44,788 nucleotides of DNA from the NCBI GenBank assembly GCA_023664365.1, contig JAMPFR010000024.1:1-44788 (forward strand), given 5' to 3'. This document shows, piece after piece, positions 20,277 through 41,628 of the stretch (position 1 is its first letter; each line of letters begins with the position of its first letter). The position numbers and the translations under genes were made by a program. A model generated the notes under the pieces. That model saw only the letters and a program-made list of their open reading frames with translations, had not been told where the DNA came from and ran no database searches. Source of the DNA: Acetatifactor muris (GTDB taxonomy: Bacteria; Bacillota; Clostridia; Lachnospirales; Lachnospiraceae).

Positions 20277-22562
20277 ATGAGAAATGTATATACGACGCTG
20301 CTGTTAATCTTTGCAGCAGCAATTTTTATCTGCAGCTGCGTAATCGGCAGGCGGGATAAACGGCCGCTGACGAAGGCCATACGATACATAATGATTGCGG
20401 CGCCCTGTACCATGGCCGCTTATGCGGCGGCGTTGATTGCGCCCGCTTTATTTACGGCGGAGCTGCTGTACGCCATATACTATACGGTGTCGGATGTGCT
20501 GCTGATTTGTATGCTGCTGTACGCCTTGAAGTATACCAATGTCTATGAGATGCGGCTTGTGCAGAAGGTGATTCTCTATTCGATAGTTGCAGTGGACGGT
20601 GTGCTGATGCTGCTGAATGTCTTTACGGAGAAGATATTTATATTCCGCTGCGGCCTGATGGAGGATTCCGGTACTTTCTTTTACGGCATTGCGGAGCGTG
20701 GCGGCCTGTATAATTTCCACAGGTTTATCATATACGGAATGGTGGTGCTGATCGTACTGCCGTTAGTGGTAAAGATTGTGAAATCCCCGGCAATGTACCG
20801 CAAGAAGTTCTGGCTTACCCTGATCAGTCTTTTGATTATCATTGCCGCCAATGTGCTGTATCTTGTAATGGAGCTGGAGATAGACTTTTCCGTGCTTACC
20901 TACGGTATCATGGCGCTGGCAATTTATTATTTCAATGTGATATATGTCCCCCAGGGGCTGGTAGAGGGGCTGCTGTCCTCCAGTATCAAGAATATGGATG
21001 ACAGCGTAATATGCTTTGACCTGGAGGGAAACTGTGTCTATGCCAACTCCGTGGCCTACGGCTTTTTTAAGGCGGAGAGCTCCGCGCCCTTTGAGGATTA
21101 CTACAGGGAATGGATGAAGGGCAGACGGCTGGCCGATGCGGAGGATGCGGAGTGGAAGGAGACCAGGGAGATAAATTCCGCAAAGAGATATTATGACGTA
21201 AGCTTTAAGCGGCTGTGCGACAGTAATGATAATTGTGTGGGCTGCTTTTTCAAGATGCATGATGAGACGGTAGAGGTGGAAAAGCTGGCGGCGGAGCGTT
21301 TCCGGGCCACTCATGACCGTCTGACGGGAATCTATAATAAAGAGCATTTCTATGATGTGGTAGCGGACGTGGTACGCGAGGCCGAGCCGGGTTCCTACTG
21401 CATGGTCTGTTCAGACATCAAGAACTTTAAGCTGGTGAACGATATTTTCGGTATCAACATAGGGGATGAGGTGCTGATAAACATTGCGGATACCCTGAAG
21501 AGGATGGCGGGCTCCGGTTCTGTTTTCGGCAGGATTTCCGGGGACAGATTTGCTATTTGTATGCCCAGGGAACGTTTTAATCCAGAGGTTTTTTCCAATG
21601 AAATCAGGCGCATAGGAGAGAAAAGCGGTACCTCCACCTATCGTATCTGTATGCATGTAGGAGTCTATGACATTGTGGACAGGGACATAGCGGTTTCCGT
21701 TATGTGCGACAGGGCCTATATGGCTATAAAGACCATCAAGTCCAGCCTTACGGATACAATAGCTCATTATGACGAGGGAATCAGAGAGAGCACCGTAAGC
21801 GAGCAGAAGCTGACGGGAGAATTCGGCGGCGCTCTGGAGGAGGGCCAGTTCTGCTTTTATATTCAGCCCCAGGTTTCCGTCCGGGGAAAGATTCTGGGAG
21901 GGGAGGCGCTGGTACGTTGGATTCATCCTGAACGGGGGCTGGTTCCGCCCGTTGAGTTTATCGGAATTCTGGAGAATACGGGACTGATCTGCAAGCTGGA
22001 TATGTACATCTGGGAGCAGGCCTGCAGGAAGCTGCGGGAGTGGAAGGACAGGGGGCTTACGGACTACCATATTTCCGTCAACATTTCTCCCAAAGACTTT
22101 TATTTTGCGGATATTTATAAAGTGTTTACGGGACTTGTGGAAAAATATGAGTTAAAGCCCCGAAATCTGCGGCTGGAGATTACGGAAAGCGCCATTATGA
22201 GTGATTTTGAGAAGCAGCTTGTGCTGATTCAAAGGCTGCAGGAGTATGGTTTCCTGGTGGAAATGGACGATTTCGGAAGCGGCTATTCCTCCCTGAACAT
22301 GCTCAAGGACATGCCGGTGAATACCCTTAAGGTGGACATGGGCTTCTTAAGGCAGACCAATCATCAGGAGCGCAGCCGGACAATTCTCAAAATGATTATA
22401 TCTCTGTCCAAACAGCTTGGCATGGAGGTAATTACGGAGGGCGTTGAGACCAGGGAACAGGTGGATTTCCTGACGGATATAGGCTGCGATATTTTCCAGG
22501 GCTACTATTTTGCAAAGCCTATGCCGGTCAGTGAGTTTGAGCAGAAATACTTTGACAGATAA
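20277..22562 (+). CDS. Membrane-bound c-di-GMP protein: degenerate GGDEF plus intact EAL
   Basis: A 761-aa protein. Residues 1-225 hold seven or eight membrane segments, like the 7TM sensor ends of some clostridial kinases. A PAS-like segment follows (about 235-335), then a GGDEF domain (about 345-500) and an EAL domain (about 505-760). The GGDEF signature reads S-G-D-R-F at 421-425, so cyclase activity is doubtful. The EAL side keeps E543-A-L, NISPKDF, the ITES glutamate, DDFGSGYSS, EGVET and QGYYFAKP, all expected of an active c-di-GMP phosphodiesterase. The likely role is signal-controlled breakdown of c-di-GMP at the membrane, with GGDEF as a regulatory GTP-binding module. Confidence 0.92.
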   Translation: MRNVYTTLLLIFAAAIFICSCVIGRRDKRPLTKAIRYIMIAAPCTMAAYAAALIAPALFTAELLYAIYYTVSDVLLICMLLYALKYTNVYEMRLVQKVILYSIVAVDGVLMLLNVFTEKIFIFRCGLMEDSGTFFYGIAERGGLYNFHRFIIYGMVVLIVLPLVVKIVKSPAMYRKKFWLTLISLLIIIAANVLYLVMELEIDFSVLTYGIMALAIYYFNVIYVPQGLVEGLLSSSIKNMDDSVICFDLEGNCVYANSVAYGFFKAESSAPFEDYYREWMKGRRLADAEDAEWKETREINSAKRYYDVSFKRLCDSNDNCVGCFFKMHDETVEVEKLAAERFRATHDRLTGIYNKEHFYDVVADVVREAEPGSYCMVCSDIKNFKLVNDIFGINIGDEVLINIADTLKRMAGSGSVFGRISGDRFAICMPRERFNPEVFSNEIRRIGEKSGTSTYRICMHVGVYDIVDRDIAVSVMCDRAYMAIKTIKSSLTDTIAHYDEGIRESTVSEQKLTGEFGGALEEGQFCFYIQPQVSVRGKILGGEALVRWIHPERGLVPPVEFIGILENTGLICKLDMYIWEQACRKLREWKDRGLTDYHISVNISPKDFYFADIYKVFTGLVEKYELKPRNLRLEITESAIMSDFEKQLVLIQRLQEYGFLVEMDDFGSGYSSLNMLKDMPVNTLKVDMGFLRQTNHQERSRTILKMIISLSKQLGMEVITEGVETREQVDFLTDIGCDIFQGYYFAKPMPVSEFEQKYFDR

Positions 22563-22621
22563 AAATACATTCAGATATCGGCACCATGCAAGTGCATCGT
22601 ATAAGAAAGGAGAGGGTGCGT

Positions 22622-23464
22622 GTGTGCAGAAAAAAGCGTGTGACAGGTCTTGCGATATGGATCGGCAGTATGCTGGCGCTGCTTGTTGGCGTATTGTTGA
22701 CCGGCGGTTCGGCAGTTCGGCATGAATCGATCAAGGAAGCTATGAGGGATGCCGTACTGCATGAATCAGGTAAGATAAGCCTGTTTGGAACAGCGGATGT
22801 AAACCCGGCGCTTATTTCGGCCTTTACCGTCACGGCTGTCGTACTGTTGACTGCAGCGGGTATCCGCATTTTTGTCATTCCGAAATTTAAGTACATTCCG
22901 GGGAAATTTCAGCTGTTGCTGGAGCAGGCGGTGGGCTTTTTTGACAACCTTGCAAAGTCAAACAGTCCGCATAGGAACAGGTTCCTGGGCGCTTATGTTT
23001 TTGCGGCGGGTGTTTATATTTTCATCGGAACGCTGTTTGAACTGTTTGGGATACAGGGCGTTACAACGGAAGGGGCGTCAATTGCCCTGCCGGCTCCGTT
23101 GTCTGATATCAATGGGGCGATTTCACTTGGCTGCCTATCTTATCTGGTGATTTTATCAGGCGGCATTGCCGGAAACGGATTCCGGGGAGTCGGAAGTACA
23201 TTAAAAGATTTTTCTCTGCCGATTTCCATGAGCTTTCGCCTTTTCGGAGCGTTGCTCAGCGGGCTGCTGGTAACGGAGCTTGTATATTTTTATATTCACT
23301 TAAGCTTTGTGCTTCCCGTGGCAGTGGGTGTTATGTTTACACTGCTTCATGCACTGATTCAGACGTATGTGCTCACCATGCTTACGGCGCTCTTTTACGG
23401 AGAGGTATCCGAGCCGCACAAGAAAATAAAAAGCAAGCGAAAGAAGAAGCAGGCGTTGGCCTGA
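22622..23464 (+). CDS. atpB: ATP synthase Fo subunit a
   Basis: A 280-aa membrane protein. I place the start at GTG 22622, about 8 nt after AAAGGAG; an ATG at 22586 lies upstream of that site. Five or six hydrophobic segments are seen. The essential Arg is R206 in SMSFRLFGALLSG, and Gln247 in LLHALIQTYVLTMLTA matches the conserved helix-5 Gln. The Asn/Ala pattern after RLFG in common subunit a proteins is replaced by ALLSG. It forms the ion half-channels against the c-ring. A weak promoter (TTGACA at 22552) may precede it; otherwise the operon may be read from the EAL gene, 59 bp upstream. No atpI gene precedes it. Confidence 0.92.
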   Translation: MCRKKRVTGLAIWIGSMLALLVGVLLTGGSAVRHESIKEAMRDAVLHESGKISLFGTADVNPALISAFTVTAVVLLTAAGIRIFVIPKFKYIPGKFQLLLEQAVGFFDNLAKSNSPHRNRFLGAYVFAAGVYIFIGTLFELFGIQGVTTEGASIALPAPLSDINGAISLGCLSYLVILSGGIAGNGFRGVGSTLKDFSLPISMSFRLFGALLSGLLVTELVYFYIHLSFVLPVAVGVMFTLLHALIQTYVLTMLTALFYGEVSEPHKKIKSKRKKKQALA

Positions 23465-23480
23465 AAAGGAGGTTATTGGA

Positions 23481-23846
23481 ATGAAGTCAATCGTTAAGAA
23501 GATTCCCGCAGTGATAATGTTGATTATGGTGTTGCTGGCATTTCCCGTTTCGGTATCTGCCGCAGAAGCGGATACAGCTGCGTCAGGGAAGGCGGCGGCA
23601 GAAGCGGTGGAAGCCGCAGATTCCGGCGGCAATAAAGCCTGGGCCGCGGCGATGTGCGTAGGCGTGCCTGCCGCCGTGGGAGCTATCGGAATGGCGTGGG
23701 CTATTTCAAAGTCTTCGGAGGGCATATCCAGACAGCCGGAGGCAGATGGGAAAATCCGTACAAACCTGATGCTGGGTCTTGTGTTTATTGAAACTGCCAT
23801 TATTTATGCGTTGATCATTGCCATATTGATTATTTTCGTTTTGTAG
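23481..23846 (+). CDS. atpE: ATP synthase Fo subunit c with a signal-peptide-like extension
   Basis: A 121-aa protein, while c subunits are usually 70-90 aa. Residues 1-28 look like a cleavable signal peptide (KK, hydrophobic core, VSA-AEA). An Ala/Glu-rich stretch follows to about residue 50, then the normal two-helix hairpin with the polar loop ISRQPEADG. The ion-carrying carboxylate is E104 in VFIETAIIYAL. Thr105 replaces the Ser next to the carboxylate in sodium-type rings, while the Gln that binds sodium in helix 1 is Met71 by my alignment. So the sodium signature is incomplete; proton use is more likely but unproven. The ribosome binding site AAAGGAGGT is strong, as expected for a multi-copy subunit. 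Confidence 0.93.
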   Translation: MKSIVKKIPAVIMLIMVLLAFPVSVSAAEADTAASGKAAAEAVEAADSGGNKAWAAAMCVGVPAAVGAIGMAWAISKSSEGISRQPEADGKIRTNLMLGLVFIETAIIYALIIAILIIFVL

Positions 23847-23874
23847 CAGTTTGCGGAAAGGCATGGTTGTTATT

Positions 23875-24324
23875 ATGAATATCCCTTTAAATATTGACTG
23901 GCAGCAGATATTGCTGCACTTGTTTAATTTTGTCATTTTGGCGGGAGGATTATATTTTCTCCTTTATAAACCGGTAAAAAGCTTTATGGAAAAAAGAACT
24001 GCTTATTATCAGGGCATGGACAAAGCGGCCGCAGACAAAATGGAGCAGGCGGAGGCGCGTGAACAGGAGTACAGGAGACGTTTGGAAGGTGCGGATCTGG
24101 AGATACGCCGCAAAAAAGAACAGGCGGCAAAAGAAGCTGAAAAAGCGGCGGAAGCTATTTTGAGTGAAGCCAATAAACAGCGAGAGCAGATCATTGCGGA
24201 GGCGCAACGGGAAGCCAGGCACGAGAAAGAAAAAATGGTTCAGGATGCAAAAGAGGAGATCGTGGGGCTGGCGTTAGCCGCCACTGAAAAAATGCTTCAT
24301 GGGGAGGCGATATCCCATGAATGA
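23875..24324 (+). CDS. atpF: ATP synthase Fo subunit b
   Basis: A 149-aa protein beginning [19 protein letters not shown], the standard b start, with one membrane segment at about residues 10-28 and then a long charged coiled coil. The ATG at 23875 is preferred over one at 23863, which sits directly on the AAAGG site. The stator stalk normally ends on the delta subunit, whose gene is missing here: the atpF stop lies inside the atpA start region (8-bp overlap). The C-terminus ([20 protein letters not shown]) is typical and carries no delta fusion. Confidence 0.93.
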
Positions 24325-25885
24325 AAAGGTGATTGACGATCAGCTTGACCAGCTGAAAAGTATATGGTCGGGGCTTACCGCACAGGAAGGAGACATCATC
24401 CCTCTTATGCAGGAAGCGGTAAAGAACTGGATTCCGTCTGACATGGCGCAGGAGAGAGGGATTGTCCTGACTGTGGGAGACGGCATTGCCACTGTGGGCG
24501 GCCTGGAGAACGCCACATATGGTGAAATACTGATTTTTTCAAACAATATCAGAGGCATGGTGCAGGATCTGAAACGCGGGGAAATCGGCTGTATTCTCTT
24601 TGGCGACGAGCAGGATATACTCGAAGGAAGTATCGTAAAAAGGACAGGTAAAACGGCAGGTATTCCGGTTGGCGACTTATTTTTGGGGCGGGTGATCGAT
24701 GCCCTTGGTAATCCCATTGACGGCCGGGGGATAATACATGGGGACGGATATTGTCCCGTGGAAGCTCCTGCGCCGGGAATTATTGACAGGCAGCCGGTGA
24801 ATCGTCCGATGGAGACAGGCATCTTGGCGATTGACGCCATGTTTCCCATTGGCCGCGGACAGAGGGAACTGATTATCGGCGACAGGCAGACGGGTAAGAC
24901 AGCAATTGCACTGGATACTATTTTGAATCAAAAAGGAAAAGATGTCATCTGCATTTATGTGGCAATCGGACAAAAGGCGTCTTCCGTGGCTCAGCTTGTG
25001 GAAACATTGCGGAAACATGATGCGATGCAGTACTCTGTTGTTGTAAATGCGACTGCAAGTGATGCAGCCCCTCTGCAGTATATTGCCCCCTATGCAGGAT
25101 GCGCTTTGGGAGAATATTTTATGAGGAAAGGGAAGGACGTACTGATCGTGTACGATGACCTTTCCAAACACGCCATTGCTTACCGGGCGCTCAGTCTGCT
25201 TCTGGAACGTTCTCCGGGGCGTGAGGCCTATCCGGGTGACGTATTTTATCTGCATTCCCGTCTGTTGGAACGAGCCGCACATCTGTCAGAGGAGCTGGGG
25301 GGCGGCAGCATGACGGCGCTTCCCATTGTGGAAACCCAGGCGGGTGATGTTTCTGCTTATATCCCTACAAATATTATTTCAATTACGGACGGTCAGATAT
25401 TTCTTGAAAGCGCTCTTTTCTTTGCGGGTCAGAGACCGGCAGTCAACGTGGGATTGTCCGTGTCCCGGGTGGGCGGAAATGCGCAGACAAAAGCAATGAA
25501 AAAAGCGGCGGGGGATATACGTCTGGAACTGGCGCAATATCGGGAAATGGAAGTGTTCATGCAGTTTTCCAGCGACCTGGACGAAGTGACAAAAAAGCAG
25601 CTTACCTTTGGCCAGGGTCTGATGGAGCTTTTGAAGCAGGCACAATACCATCCCCTGAAACAAATAGATCAGGTACTCCTTCTGACAGCGGCGCTTGACC
25701 ATGTAATGCAGAATGTTTCCACTCACGGAATTCCGGAATTCGGGAAGGGTCTGATTGCATATGTAAAGGAGCAGCTTCCCGACGTCTGCACGGAAATCGA
25801 GAAAAGCGGGGCGCTTACGGATGAGGACAGGGAAAGAATACTTGAAGCATCAAGGAAATATCTGAAGGTGATAAAAGAAGGGTAA
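24317..25885 (+). CDS. atpA: ATP synthase F1 subunit alpha, unusual N-terminus
   Basis: A 522-aa non-catalytic nucleotide-binding subunit. Walker A is GDRQTGKT at about residues 188-195, some 19 residues later than in E. coli alpha (169). The extra length is at the N-terminus: the first 45 residues ([20 protein letters not shown] and on) lack the EEISxIIKxQI-type helix that binds delta in ordinary enzymes. From [12 protein letters not shown] onward the protein is canonical, including the [20 protein letters not shown] region and a full C-terminal domain. The ATG 24317 is preceded by GGGGAGG and overlaps atpF. It may be closer to the alternate/N-ATPase alpha group; a tree is needed. Confidence 0.94.
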
Positions 25886-25897
25886 GGAGCGATTGTG

Positions 25898-28223
<2,326 letters not shown>

Positions 28224-28224
<1 letters not shown>

Positions 28225-38180: not shown

Positions 38181-39425
38181 TCATTTGAATCCCTCAATCA
38201 GGCGCTGTGCCTCTGCCAGGGAAATATTCCTTGTCCTTGCGATATCGGCAAGGTCTTCATACTCATATTTGCAGCGTGTGACGCCATATCCGGATGAAAC
38301 CTTCCGCCGAACCCTTCCATAAGGAGTATCCAGCGTTTCGATCTGCCGGTTGAGAGTATGACGGCGGGTTATGACTTCGCGGATACCGATTGTGGTTGTA
38401 TGCCTGAACAGCAGAGTAATGATGTGTTCTTTGTTTTCCGGTGAGCAGATTACCCGGATCAGTGTACCGGGACGAGATTTTTTCATACCGACAGGGACTG
38501 TGTACACTTCAAACGCACCGCCTTCAAACAGACGTTCCGCTGCGAAGCCCACAGCTTCCGCCGTCATATCATCAACATTGCAGGAAAGCTCCAGAACAGT
38601 GTTTGCGGCAGATTCACATTCACCCAGCATTGCTCTTACACAATTTGCAGCAGTAAAATCCTTTTTTCCCATACCATATCCGACAGACTGCACTTTCATC
38701 ACGGGCATATCGCCAAAACGGGTTGCAAAATATTTGAGTAAGGCAGCGCCTGTGGGGGTACACAATTCCCCCTTGATTCCACCGCTGTAGATAGGGACGT
38801 CTTTCAGAATATAGGCGGCAGCAGGAGCAGGAACAGGCAGAATGCCGTGAGCGCATTTAACATGGCCGCTTCCCACATGGATGGGAGAAACAATGATTTC
38901 ATCCGGATTCAGTCTGTCTATCAAAAGGCAGACTGACACAATATCTGCAATGGCGTCTTTTGTGCCAACCTCGTGAAAGTGTATTTCTGTAACCGGCATA
39001 CCATGGACATGGCTTTCCGCCTCTGCAAGCAGCCGATATACAGAAAGAACATTGTTTCTGACTGTTTCGGGCAGGGGTAAAGCTGTTACCAGGGATTCAA
39101 TATCCCCCAGGCTGCTGTGACTGTGGTGTGCCGTTTCGCCAGGGTGGGAATGTTTATGGTCATGATGATGCTCATGTTCATGATGATGTTCATGATGATG
39201 TTCATGTATTCCTTCACCTTCTTCCGTACCGTCAACTCGAACGGAAATGTGCGTGCCGGTAATGCCGCACTTTACGGAAGCTTCTTTCAGGATCTGAACA
39301 TCGGGAATACCCAGAGCATTCAGTTCGGAAATAAATGCGTCCGGCTCCGGTAAAAGCTCCACCAGCGCTGAAGCCAGCATATCACCGGCAGCGCCCATAC
39401 CGCAATCTAAGTATAATGTTTTCAT
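38181..39425 (-). CDS. larC: LarC-type nickel-pincer cofactor biosynthesis protein (DUF111)
   Basis: A 414-aa single uninterrupted frame. The family inserts nickel into the pyridinium-dithiodicarboxylate pincer cofactor of lactate racemase and related enzymes. It opens LYLDCGMGAAGDMLASALVE, carries a His-rich loop at about residues 75-105 (repeats of HEHHH and HDHKHSH), and then FHEVGTKDAIADIV, GVGYGMG-like and ANCVRAMLGE blocks. In some lactobacilli larC is split and needs a frameshift; here it is not. No larA, larB or larE is present in the window, so it is an orphan locally. Start ATG 39425 follows TGGAGGTCC. Confidence 0.93.
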   Translation of the reverse strand: MKTLYLDCGMGAAGDMLASALVELLPEPDAFISELNALGIPDVQILKEASVKCGITGTHISVRVDGTEEGEGIHEHHHEHHHEHEHHHDHKHSHPGETAHHSHSSLGDIESLVTALPLPETVRNNVLSVYRLLAEAESHVHGMPVTEIHFHEVGTKDAIADIVSVCLLIDRLNPDEIIVSPIHVGSGHVKCAHGILPVPAPAAAYILKDVPIYSGGIKGELCTPTGAALLKYFATRFGDMPVMKVQSVGYGMGKKDFTAANCVRAMLGECESAANTVLELSCNVDDMTAEAVGFAAERLFEGGAFEVYTVPVGMKKSRPGTLIRVICSPENKEHIITLLFRHTTTIGIREVITRRHTLNRQIETLDTPYGRVRRKVSSGYGVTRCKYEYEDLADIARTRNISLAEAQRLIEGFK

Positions 39426-39632: not shown

Positions 39633-40706
39633 ATGCAAAAGATATTGGTAGTGGACGACGAGGAAACAAACCGCGAGTTGCTGCGGGCCATACTGGAAGA
39701 CAGCTATACGGTGGTGACGGCGGAGGATGGGGAAAAGGCCCTGCAGGAGCTGCAGGAATATCATAAGGAAACGGCGGCGGTTCTTCTGGATCTGCAGATG
39801 CCGAATACGGACGGCTTTGCGGTGATAGAGGAACTGAAAAGGAACGGCTGGATAGACAGAATTCCGGTACTCATTATAAGCGGCGATAAAAACGTTACAA
39901 TCGAGAGCCGATGCTTTGAGCAGGGGGTTTCTGATTTTATCCATAAGCCCTTTGAGGCGGCCATCGTCAGGAACAGGGTTAAAAGCTCCATTGATTTGTT
40001 TGGCCGTAAAAACGGCCTGGAGCAAAAGGTGGAAGAGCAGGCGGTAACGCTGGAAAGGCAGTCGCAGATTATCCGGCTGCAGGAAGAAAAGCTGAGCCAG
40101 GCAAAGCCCTTTAACAAGCTGATGTTGGAGTATCGTTCTGCGATGATGGAAATTGAGACAAGGCTTAAGGTGCTGAACGCGGTGTTTTCCGAGGAATATA
40201 ACAGAAATCCTTTTGAGTCTATCCGGAGCAGGCTGAAATCGCCGGAGAGTATTGCCAGAAAGCTGGAGAAGAAGGGATATCCTCTTACTCTGGAGAATAT
40301 AAAGGAGTATGTGACGGATGTGGCGGGGCTGCGTGTAATCTGCTCTTTTCCGGATGATATTTACCGGCTGGCAGATCTGTTGATTGAGCAGGATGATATA
40401 ATACTGCTGAGGTCAAAGGATTATATCAAGACGCCTAAGCCCAACGGCTACCGAAGCCTTCACCTCACCTTAAGCGTACCGCTTTTCCTGCCGGATGAAA
40501 AGAAGTATGTGAAGGCGGAGGTGCAGTTCCGTACCATTGCCATGGATTTCTGGGCAAGTCTGGAGCATAAGCTGAAATATAAGAAAGATGATTTGGCGGG
40601 CGCGGATGAGATTGAGCAGCAGCTGAAGGTATGCGCGGACTCCATTGAGGAGTTGGATTACCGGATGCAGGAGATACGGGATAAAATCTATGGTTCCGGG
40701 GAATAA
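39633..40706 (+). CDS. Response regulator receiver fused to a (p)ppGpp synthetase domain
   Basis: A 357-aa fusion. Residues 1-120 are a complete REC domain: acidic pair D8-D9, phosphoacceptor D53 in LLDLQMP, switch Ser83 in LIISGDK and Lys105 in HKPF. A helical linker (about 120-165) leads to a RelA/SpoT synthetase domain (about 165-350) most like small alarmone synthetases of the RelQ type: SRLKSPESIARKLEKKG, metal Asp229 in VTDVAGLRV, KDYIKTPKPNGYRSLHL (262-278) and Glu297 in AEVQFRTIAMDFWASLEHKL. No hydrolase (HD) domain is present. The prediction is pyrophosphate transfer from ATP to GDP or GTP, gated by phosphorylation. No sensor kinase lies nearby. The ribosome binding site is weak. Confidence 0.92.
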   Translation: MQKILVVDDEETNRELLRAILEDSYTVVTAEDGEKALQELQEYHKETAAVLLDLQMPNTDGFAVIEELKRNGWIDRIPVLIISGDKNVTIESRCFEQGVSDFIHKPFEAAIVRNRVKSSIDLFGRKNGLEQKVEEQAVTLERQSQIIRLQEEKLSQAKPFNKLMLEYRSAMMEIETRLKVLNAVFSEEYNRNPFESIRSRLKSPESIARKLEKKGYPLTLENIKEYVTDVAGLRVICSFPDDIYRLADLLIEQDDIILLRSKDYIKTPKPNGYRSLHLTLSVPLFLPDEKKYVKAEVQFRTIAMDFWASLEHKLKYKKDDLAGADEIEQQLKVCADSIEELDYRMQEIRDKIYGSGE

Positions 40707-40812: not shown

Positions 40813-41340
40813 ATGCAAGTCAAAGCGATTACAGTAAATGCGGCAGAGATGATGACAGAAAGACAGAGTATTCCGGGGAACGGTATTCAGGCGCAGGCAG
40901 AGAGCAATTATATGTTTGCTCCGGAGTGCAAGGTAACGATTTCCAGAGAAGGTAGGAACTTAAGCAGACAGCAGATGGCTCAAGCCGAATCAAACGTTCA
41001 AAGTACCAAGAGCGTTGCAGTGGAAAGTAATCCGTTAAGCAAACAGGAGGAGACGAAAGGATTACGGGAAAATCTGATGGAAATGTTCCGGGAGATAGGG
41101 CTTTCCGGACAGAATCTTCTTGACAGGGTGGATGAGGTCTATAGCAAAATGTGCAGGCCGTCTCATGGGGATTTGCAGTTTTCACTGAATGAATCCTCAG
41201 AAGAAGCGATGGCGGCAGTGAAAGAGCTTGCGCAGAAAGCCGGGAAGGTGGAGGATATAACGGTTGACCCCTCCAGGGCGAAGGATCTCATACAGGCAGC
41301 GCAGGAATATTCCCTGGTTATGCCGGGGAGAACAGAGTAA
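40813..41340 (+). CDS. Hypothetical protein, 175 aa, no recognised domain
   Basis: A soluble, hydrophilic 175-aa protein with a good ribosome binding site (TGGAGGAAA). The first 70 residues are Gln/Ser/Asn-rich and look disordered; they contain CKVTISREGRNLSRQQ, a motif I associate with uncharacterised clostridial proteins. Residues 80-170 look helical (LRENLMEMFREIGLSGQNLLDRVDEVYSKM). No signal peptide or membrane segment is seen. It lies 106 bp after the REC-synthetase gene with a possible weak promoter between (TTGTCC at 40737, TAGCAT at 40760), and a strong terminator follows. I cannot assign a function. Confidence 0.8.
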   Translation: MQVKAITVNAAEMMTERQSIPGNGIQAQAESNYMFAPECKVTISREGRNLSRQQMAQAESNVQSTKSVAVESNPLSKQEETKGLRENLMEMFREIGLSGQNLLDRVDEVYSKMCRPSHGDLQFSLNESSEEAMAAVKELAQKAGKVEDITVDPSRAKDLIQAAQEYSLVMPGRTE

Positions 41341-41365: not shown

Positions 41366-41394
41366 TCAGGTTTGCTTCGGCAAACCTGATTTTT
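41366..41394 (+). terminator. Strong intrinsic terminator
   Basis: T-CAGGTTTGC (41366-41375), a TTCG tetraloop and GCAAACCTG-A (41380-41389) form a 10-bp perfect stem followed by TTTTT (41390-41394). It ends the transcript of the 175-aa gene. The rest of the gene-free stretch 41341-41649 holds the recA promoter and LexA sites. Confidence 0.92.
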
Positions 41395-41616: not shown

Positions 41617-41628
41617 GAACGTTTGTTC
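41617..41628. promoter_or_regulatory. LexA (SOS) operator of recA
   Basis: GAAC-GTTT-GTTC (41617-41628) matches the Firmicutes SOS-box core GAAC-N4-GTTC exactly, flanked by AGA and TG. It lies just past the expected transcription start, 22 bp before the recA ATG. recA is the classic LexA target, which supports the call. LexA itself is not in the window. Confidence 0.85.

Follow-up and report, generated by a model that had tools for sequence, protein, structure and literature searches.

A receiver domain joined to a RelP-type alarmone synthetase in Acetatifactor muris: a probable response regulator with (p)ppGpp synthesis as its output

Results

A single reading frame joins a receiver to a (p)ppGpp synthetase domain

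The window analysed here, the whole stretch of 44,788 nucleotides, contains a gene, termed REC-SAS, whose product combines a receiver, a coiled-coil-like linker and a RelP-type alarmone synthetase (Table 1). A sequence-only reading had described this gene as a receiver fused to a small synthetase, and the single open frame with both Pfam domains bears this out. The domain search proposed at the time returned Response_reg (aa 4-116, 83.9 bits against a cut-off of 30.2) and RelA_SpoT (aa 199-319, 111.4 bits against a cut-off of 27), both well above threshold and the only families to score above cut-off. Hydrolase (HD), TGS and ACT domains were absent from the protein in this Pfam search; the claimed lack of a hydrolase domain was thereby confirmed, and membership of the long RSH (Rel) proteins was rejected. 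A chance fusion or assembly join was discarded since 47 other distinct full-length homologues share the architecture, the nearest of them (94% identical) coming from a different genome. The fusion is real; each half is ordinary and it is their joining that is unusual. The residues claimed for a full receiver (D8, D9, D53, S83 and K105) were found at their positions and, with the acidic pair, phospho-Asp, Ser/Thr and Lys all present, the N-terminal half is recognizable from its residues as a response-regulator receiver.

Table 1. Positions of REC-SAS, its parts and neighbouring features in the window
Feature	Coordinates	Strand	Basis
REC-SAS gene (receiver + coiled-coil-like linker + RelP-type alarmone synthetase), 357 aa	39633..40706	+	ORF, Pfam, homologues
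Receiver (REC) domain, aa 4-116	39642..39980	+	PF00072 E 1.2e-23
Asp53 codon (putative phospho-acceptor)	39789-39791	+	phosphorylation of D53 inferred from family
Linker, aa 119-157, heptad pattern	39987..40103	+	homologue alignment; putative coiled coil
RelP-type (p)ppGpp synthetase domain, aa 158-352	40104..40688	+	PF04607 E 3.7e-32; PDB phmmer
G-loop run KDYIKTPKPNGYRSLHL, aa 262-278, incl. P268 and Tyr273	40416..40466	+	alignment to SaRelP
Intrinsic-terminator-like hairpin, 10 pairs, T-rich tail	41366..41389	+	after 175-aa ORF
larC, nickel insertion protein	38181-39425	-	Pfam
175-aa ORF	40813-41340		
GAAC-N4-GTTC box, perfect	41617-41628		start of presumed recA ORF
HisKA_7TM-GGDEF-EAL protein	20277-22562	+	PAS match below cut-off
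F-type ATP synthase-like gene run (presumed)	22586-28224	+	by eye from ORFs
First ORF of that run	22586-23464		

REC-SAS sits between larC, on the opposite strand, and a 175-aa ORF, followed by ORFs that we take by eye to be recA, recX and rny. In L086, the relative with 94% identity, 15 nt separate the end of cinA from REC-SAS; in the window larC lies in between, reflecting either an insertion or a loss. On the + strand, no terminator-like site was found in our scan between REC-SAS and the 175-aa ORF, and the two terminator-like sites that were found match the number in shuffles (mean 2.2). Within 500 nt upstream of REC-SAS (+ reading) there is no SOS-type box except a one-mismatch site at 39047, and the 14 boxes found in the window with one mismatch allowed are not above chance (13.8 expected). 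The perfect box at the start of the presumed recA ORF is as expected for SOS control. The window also encodes a GGDEF-EAL protein, so c-di-GMP genes lie beside the alarmone gene; the ATP synthase-like run starts directly after it.

Conceivably, REC-SAS could be the toxic synthetase of a toxin-antitoxin or defence pair. Residues 141-308 do match a PADLOC candidate model, PDC-S33 (E 7.7e-20), but this region combines the linker with the general fold of synthetases. The adjacent 175-aa ORF has no PADLOC match and no Pfam or NCBIfam match above cut-off, and homologues of it were absent from the 54 REC-SAS loci compared in other genomes, a count that includes duplicates. The neighbours are common to close relatives only. 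We therefore consider a toxin role highly improbable.

The synthetase half is of the RelP type

The synthetase had been assigned to the RelQ-like subclass, an assignment that our comparisons overturn. Against PDB sequences, the C-terminal half scored 171-173 bits with the RelP/YwaC chains 6ewz (phmmer E 7e-50), 6fgj and 6fgk versus 120-121 bits with the RelQ/YjbM chains 5ded, 5f2v and 5dec, and the NCBIfam YjbM model gave a score of 156, below its cut-off of 320. In a gap-free alignment with SaRelP, 10 of the 11 residues checked are identical (R78, K80, S84, K88, D107, R112, P146, Y151, E174 and H190), the exception being R91, which is replaced by Lys. SaRelP P146, the G-loop proline that distinguishes RelP, corresponds to P268. 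The RelQ pppGpp-site residues F42, T44 and N148 (BsRelQ numbering, set from our alignment) align with S196, R198 and D305. Since these residues are replaced, the G-loop proline is present and the YjbM equivalog cut-off is missed, RelQ membership was rejected. Of the active-site features claimed previously, D229 and the KDYIKTPKPNGYRSLHL run lie where they had been placed; residue 297, named as the catalytic Glu, is Val, and the catalytic Glu maps by alignment to E296.

Excerpts of the study by Steinchen et al. (PMC5794853) list which SaRelP residues bind ATP and Mg, describe the ATP-coordinating and catalytic residues as common to RelP and RelQ, and assign binding of guanosine to the G-loop Tyr. 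In the same excerpts, the proline is present in RelP and missing from RelQ, orders the RelP G-loop and makes RelP independent of pppGpp stimulation. Taken together, the PDB scores, the G-loop proline and the replaced RelQ residues indicate that the enzyme half is RelP-type. Stimulation of REC-SAS by pppGpp would not be expected of a RelP-type synthetase with this proline; studies disagree on the regulation of RelP by alarmones and zinc, according to excerpts of a review (PMC10117726). With its N-terminal receiver, REC-SAS is a RelP-domain protein and not a plain RelP.

Receiver, linker and catalytic residues are conserved

A search of GTDB contigs matched 593 stretches. The best 80 loci of the 593 included 18 full-length relatives, and further full-length relatives were taken from whole-genome searches. 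Merging of identical proteins reduced the 55 REC-SAS loci to 48 distinct proteins, the window's own included. D9, D53, R200, K202, S206, K210, D229, R234, P268, Y273 and E296 are invariant (48/48). The remaining positions vary little: residue 8 is Asp in 46 and Glu in 2, residue 83 Ser in 44 and Thr in 4, residue 105 Lys in 47 and Arg in 1, and residue 312 His in 47 and Tyr in 1, while position 213 is Arg in 44, Lys in 3 (including the window's own) and Leu in 1. The sequence-only reading had named a degenerate catalytic pocket in homologues as evidence that would count against it; no such degeneration was seen at R200, K202, S206, K210, D229, R234, Y273 or E296 in any of the 48 proteins. This near-invariance of receiver and synthetase residues suggests that both active sites are under selection.

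The same conservation bears on whether the receiver is merely a scaffold that determines how a constitutively active RelP oligomerizes, how stable it is or where in the cell it lies, with phosphorylation of little consequence for activity. Such a role would suit the G-loop of S. aureus RelP, which is ordered without an activator in an enzyme that pppGpp does not stimulate (excerpts of PMC5794853), as well as the retention of the G-loop proline in 48/48 fused proteins and the observation that a kinase gene is not a regular neighbour of REC-SAS. However, a pure scaffold would not need the phosphorylation pocket, and D9, D53 and S/T83 are kept in 48/48 proteins and K105 in 47/48. On balance, a scaffold role appears unlikely.

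Judged by its heptad pattern, the linker would form a coiled coil, with hydrophobic residues at the a positions (V133, L140, I147 and L154) and L129, Q136, Q143 and Q150 at the d positions. Q136, L140, I147 and L154 are kept in 48/48 proteins, and V133, L129, Q143 and Q150 in 44-47 of the 48. From K105 to E195 the span is 91 residues in 47/48 and 87 in one; the 4-residue linker deletion in L087 counts against a strictly fixed linker length. At its C-terminal end, the linker runs straight into the stretch aligned with the N-terminal helix of RelP.

REC-SAS is confined to one family group among the genomes sampled

A count of this architecture across Clostridia, as had been suggested, found carriers in the genus (14/101 genomes), family (13/397), order (2/295) and class (1/291) samples, where a carrier has a match starting at residue 1 and reaching at least residue 352. 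The own genome is counted in all four samples and the order sample's second carrier is also in the genus sample, giving 26 distinct carriers, every one within the window's own family group. REC-SAS is carried by 17 of the 29 genomes in the genus of G275. E-value limits were 1e-60, 1e-80, 1e-65 and 1e-55 for the four samples and 1e-120 for the G275 genus; because scoring in the genus, family, order and class samples covered the best 5-20 candidates per genome, absences there are less sure than presences. REC-SAS was not seen on mobile elements: matches in 23 plasmid and 34 phage records all stayed at or below 80% of the query, and in IMG/VR a short-peptide-pattern scan matched two loci, in the synthetase part only.

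The own draft genome (3.86 Mb) has four RelA_SpoT places: a separate 771-aa frame (L001), a standalone small synthetase (L002:1246-1974, + strand, G000 contig 83), the REC-SAS fusion and L004. The standalone enzyme is also RelP-type, scoring 206 bits to YwaC and 128-130 to YjbM. L004 (1384-2019, - strand, G000 contig 130) encodes a divergent protein of ~211 aa with a marginal RelA_SpoT score (27.8 bits, cut-off 27) and a weak PADLOC PDC-S33 match, and is possibly toxSAS-like or decayed. Replacement of the ordinary RelP by REC-SAS was considered and dropped, a standalone match (E <= 1e-60) in 2/14 carriers versus 25/87 non-carriers being unconvincing.

The receiver and linker resemble those of REC-HD-GYP regulators

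A quick-search tree was built from the synthetase domains of 36 fused and 43 standalone proteins. All the fused domains group in one clade (SH-aLRT 95), inside which the standalone proteins L023-L025 fall without a settled placement. The simplest reading of this tree is a single fusion event, with a possible later loss of the receiver in L023-L025. The loci of L024 and L025 gave no receiver match; that of L023 has one on the opposite strand, 32% identical. Residues 245, 292, 337, 339 and 343 are special to the fused clade and, since they are partly shared by the nested standalone proteins, they are not receiver-specific.

Across a stretch of about 150 residues that takes in the receiver and the linker, REC-SAS is 48-50% identical to the REC-HD-GYP proteins L188-L190 of the non-carriers G017, G060 and G031, which we take to be RpfG-like regulators (HD_5 by Pfam in L188 and L189; by similarity in L190). 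Within the own genome, the two nearest REC-HD-GYP proteins reach about 39-40% and 36% identity; two OmpR-type receivers reach 33-38% across shorter stretches. The linkers of L188-L190 repeat the pattern seen in REC-SAS, with hydrophobic a and Gln d positions. L188-L190 are also closest in the receiver tree, where long branches meet and the bootstrap had not settled; support there for REC-SAS as a single group is only moderate (74/61). REC-SAS itself was rejected as a REC-HD-GYP regulator since Pfam detects no HD output and the receiver and linker alone are in common. Given the similarity of receiver plus linker and the matching linker pattern, the entire module seems to have been taken over from a regulator of the REC-HD-GYP family, known for c-di-GMP hydrolases, and to have received a new output near aa 155. 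Most likely, a one-time output-domain swap would have joined a REC-HD-GYP receiver and coiled-coil linker to a clostridial RelP. The frame at L188 (6325-8796, + strand, G017 contig 19) spans 823 aa with REC, HD and RsmF-type rRNA methyltransferase domains, and is either a strange fusion or an assembly slip.

A hybrid histidine kinase is a candidate partner

The sequence-only reading had noted no histidine kinase near the gene and had looked to an orphan kinase or small phosphodonor for the input. This view gained support: the window gave no match when scanned with one hybrid-kinase core, and a candidate hybrid kinase is encoded elsewhere in the genome. The candidate came from one draft genome (L012), in which a 1047-aa kinase of PAS-PAS-HisKA-HATPase-REC-REC architecture is encoded on the REC-SAS strand, its gene ending 7 nt short of the REC-SAS start, with no second full-length match to it in that genome. 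Orthologues, defined as matches over 1000 bits (several are forms with one receiver instead of two), were found in 14/14 carriers versus 19/87 non-carriers of the genus sample and in 13/13 versus 27/384 of the family sample. All 26 distinct carriers of these two samples have one. The best 7 (genus) and 2 (family) candidates per genome were scored, so kinase absences are less sure than presences. In the own genome the copy lies on a different contig from REC-SAS (G000:C119:14665-17814).

Control genes were enriched as well: a second own hybrid kinase occurs in 9/14 carriers versus 18/87 non-carriers (p 0.0017, three partial matches counted) and the own REC-HD-GYP orthologue (>=65% identity) in 11/14 versus 19/87 (p 6.5e-5). 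Among genomes with that REC-HD-GYP orthologue, the kinase is found in 11/11 carriers versus 16/19 non-carriers (p 0.28). Thus, the association of the kinase with REC-SAS largely reflects kinship. Mapped on a tree of the kinase from 19 carriers and 11 non-carriers, the carrier label requires 7 changes against a shuffled mean of 9.2, and 33 of 500 shuffles were as low, which is weak evidence on co-inheritance either way.

Gene neighbourhood did not identify a partner kinase, the neighbours being common to close relatives only. We scanned 49 REC-SAS loci (two duplicates; flanks 0.2 to 6 kb) with the kinase core and two HPt proteins; besides L012, only a distant kinase ~4 kb upstream was found, in L021, and no HPt match. 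The kinase-core scan misses divergent kinases, as the kinase of L008 went undetected. There, a regulator-kinase pair lies downstream of REC-SAS and was rejected as a partner because it has its own regulator, which from its sequence we take to be OmpR-like.

Neighbourhoods of REC-HD-GYP genes are suggestive of the candidate as partner. In L189 and L190, the REC-HD-GYP gene with the receiver nearest to REC-SAS is preceded by genes for a hybrid kinase and an HPt protein and by one further gene, which Pfam identifies as FapA-like in L189; these kinases are 60% identical to the candidate in the core. In G053 and G050 (L186 and L187), full-length kinases 45% identical to it lie ~100 nt from REC-HD-GYP genes with receivers less similar to that of REC-SAS (34-35%). 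A compact phosphorelay in the own genome (L191:415-4506, - strand, G000 contig 141), comprising REC-HD-GYP, HPt, a PAS-HisKA-HATPase kinase and a second REC-HD protein, could be an additional feed for the REC-SAS receiver.

It is an even question whether the L012 kinase is the partner at all, the phosphate coming instead from other HPt proteins and hybrid kinases or from acetyl phosphate. Such donors would account for the kinase orthologue in 19/87 and 27/384 non-carriers and for the lack of a significant association once the REC-HD-GYP orthologue is conditioned on, and REC-HD-GYP regulators of the own genome have an HPt and a HisKA kinase as neighbours. The 7-nt adjacency in L012 and the presence of the kinase in 26/26 distinct carriers argue the other way. 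Either source of phosphate is compatible with REC-SAS being switched by phosphorylation.

Discussion

From its sequence, REC-SAS is probably a response regulator with a RelP-type synthetase as output, switched by phosphorylation. We infer its catalysis, its phosphorylation, the phosphorelay and the sense of the switch. A hybrid histidine kinase would phosphorylate Asp53, probably via a separate HPt protein, and the phosphorylated receiver would alter dimer contacts. The continuous receiver-linker helix could then pass this change into helix alpha1 of the synthetase, which, turned or stretched, would alter the tetramer or the active site and so set the rate of pyrophosphate transfer from ATP onto GDP or GTP. 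In the RelP and RelQ tetramers, helix alpha1 lies at the medial interface, according to excerpts of PMC5794853.

We weakly favour a switch in which phosphorylation turns synthesis on. As a less probable variant of the same regulator, phosphorylation might shut synthesis off and loss of the kinase signal release it; RelP is intrinsically active, so that a brake would be an economical addition. In a wider scheme, which we put forward with somewhat more doubt still, one hybrid-kinase/HPt phosphorelay in Lachnospiraceae would serve interchangeable outputs, REC-HD-GYP lowering c-di-GMP and REC-SAS raising (p)ppGpp, post-translationally.

Among known systems, RelP (SAS2, YwaC/SasA) has the same synthetase domain, ATP/Mg-binding residues and G-loop proline and Tyr as REC-SAS, but lacks a receiver and has R91 (SaRelP) in place of K213. 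RelQ (SAS1, YjbM/SasB) belongs to the same domain family; REC-SAS differs from RelQ by the G-loop proline and the altered pppGpp site. The REC-HD-GYP proteins L188-L190 share the receiver and Gln-ladder linker, but their output is an HD domain and not a synthetase. In PleD-type REC-GGDEF diguanylate cyclases, which appear among the PDB matches via the receiver part, a receiver also controls a nucleotide second-messenger enzyme, although product and catalytic fold differ from those of the synthetase. The nitrogen phosphotransferase system (PTSNtr) of Caulobacter reportedly works with SpoT, a long RSH, via a separate protein and not a fused receiver. Excerpts of PMC4848567 describe this phosphotransfer system as acting on (p)ppGpp accumulation. 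Fused or two-domain small synthetases are represented by RelZ and Tas1 in excerpts of PMC7591505, where RelZ (RNase HII-RSD) of Mycobacterium smegmatis pairs the synthetase with RNase HII and not a signalling domain; exported small synthetases carry targeting domains (excerpts of PMC12691689).

Small synthetases are controlled by transcription, alarmones, RNA or zinc, and two-component systems such as VraRS and WalKR act on their expression, as excerpts of PMC10117726 relate. For Clostridia, RelP and RelQ are listed and no receiver fusion is named in excerpts of Atkinson et al. (2011; PMC3153485). We found no description of a receiver-synthetase fusion in the literature, covered mostly through titles and abstracts of open papers, nor in the excerpts of PMC6667448, PMC9228545, PMC6416229, PMC10601699, PMC3153485, PMC10117726, PMC7591505 and PMC12691689. 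The architecture may well be listed already in protein databases.

If this reading of the fused receiver is correct, a sensor kinase would have direct and rapid control of alarmone synthesis that needs neither new transcription nor starved ribosomes. It would also show that a receiver-linker module serving c-di-GMP breakdown can be transferred to (p)ppGpp synthesis, and REC-SAS would allow, in gut bacteria, a clear-cut study of signal transfer from coiled-coil linkers to unrelated catalytic folds.
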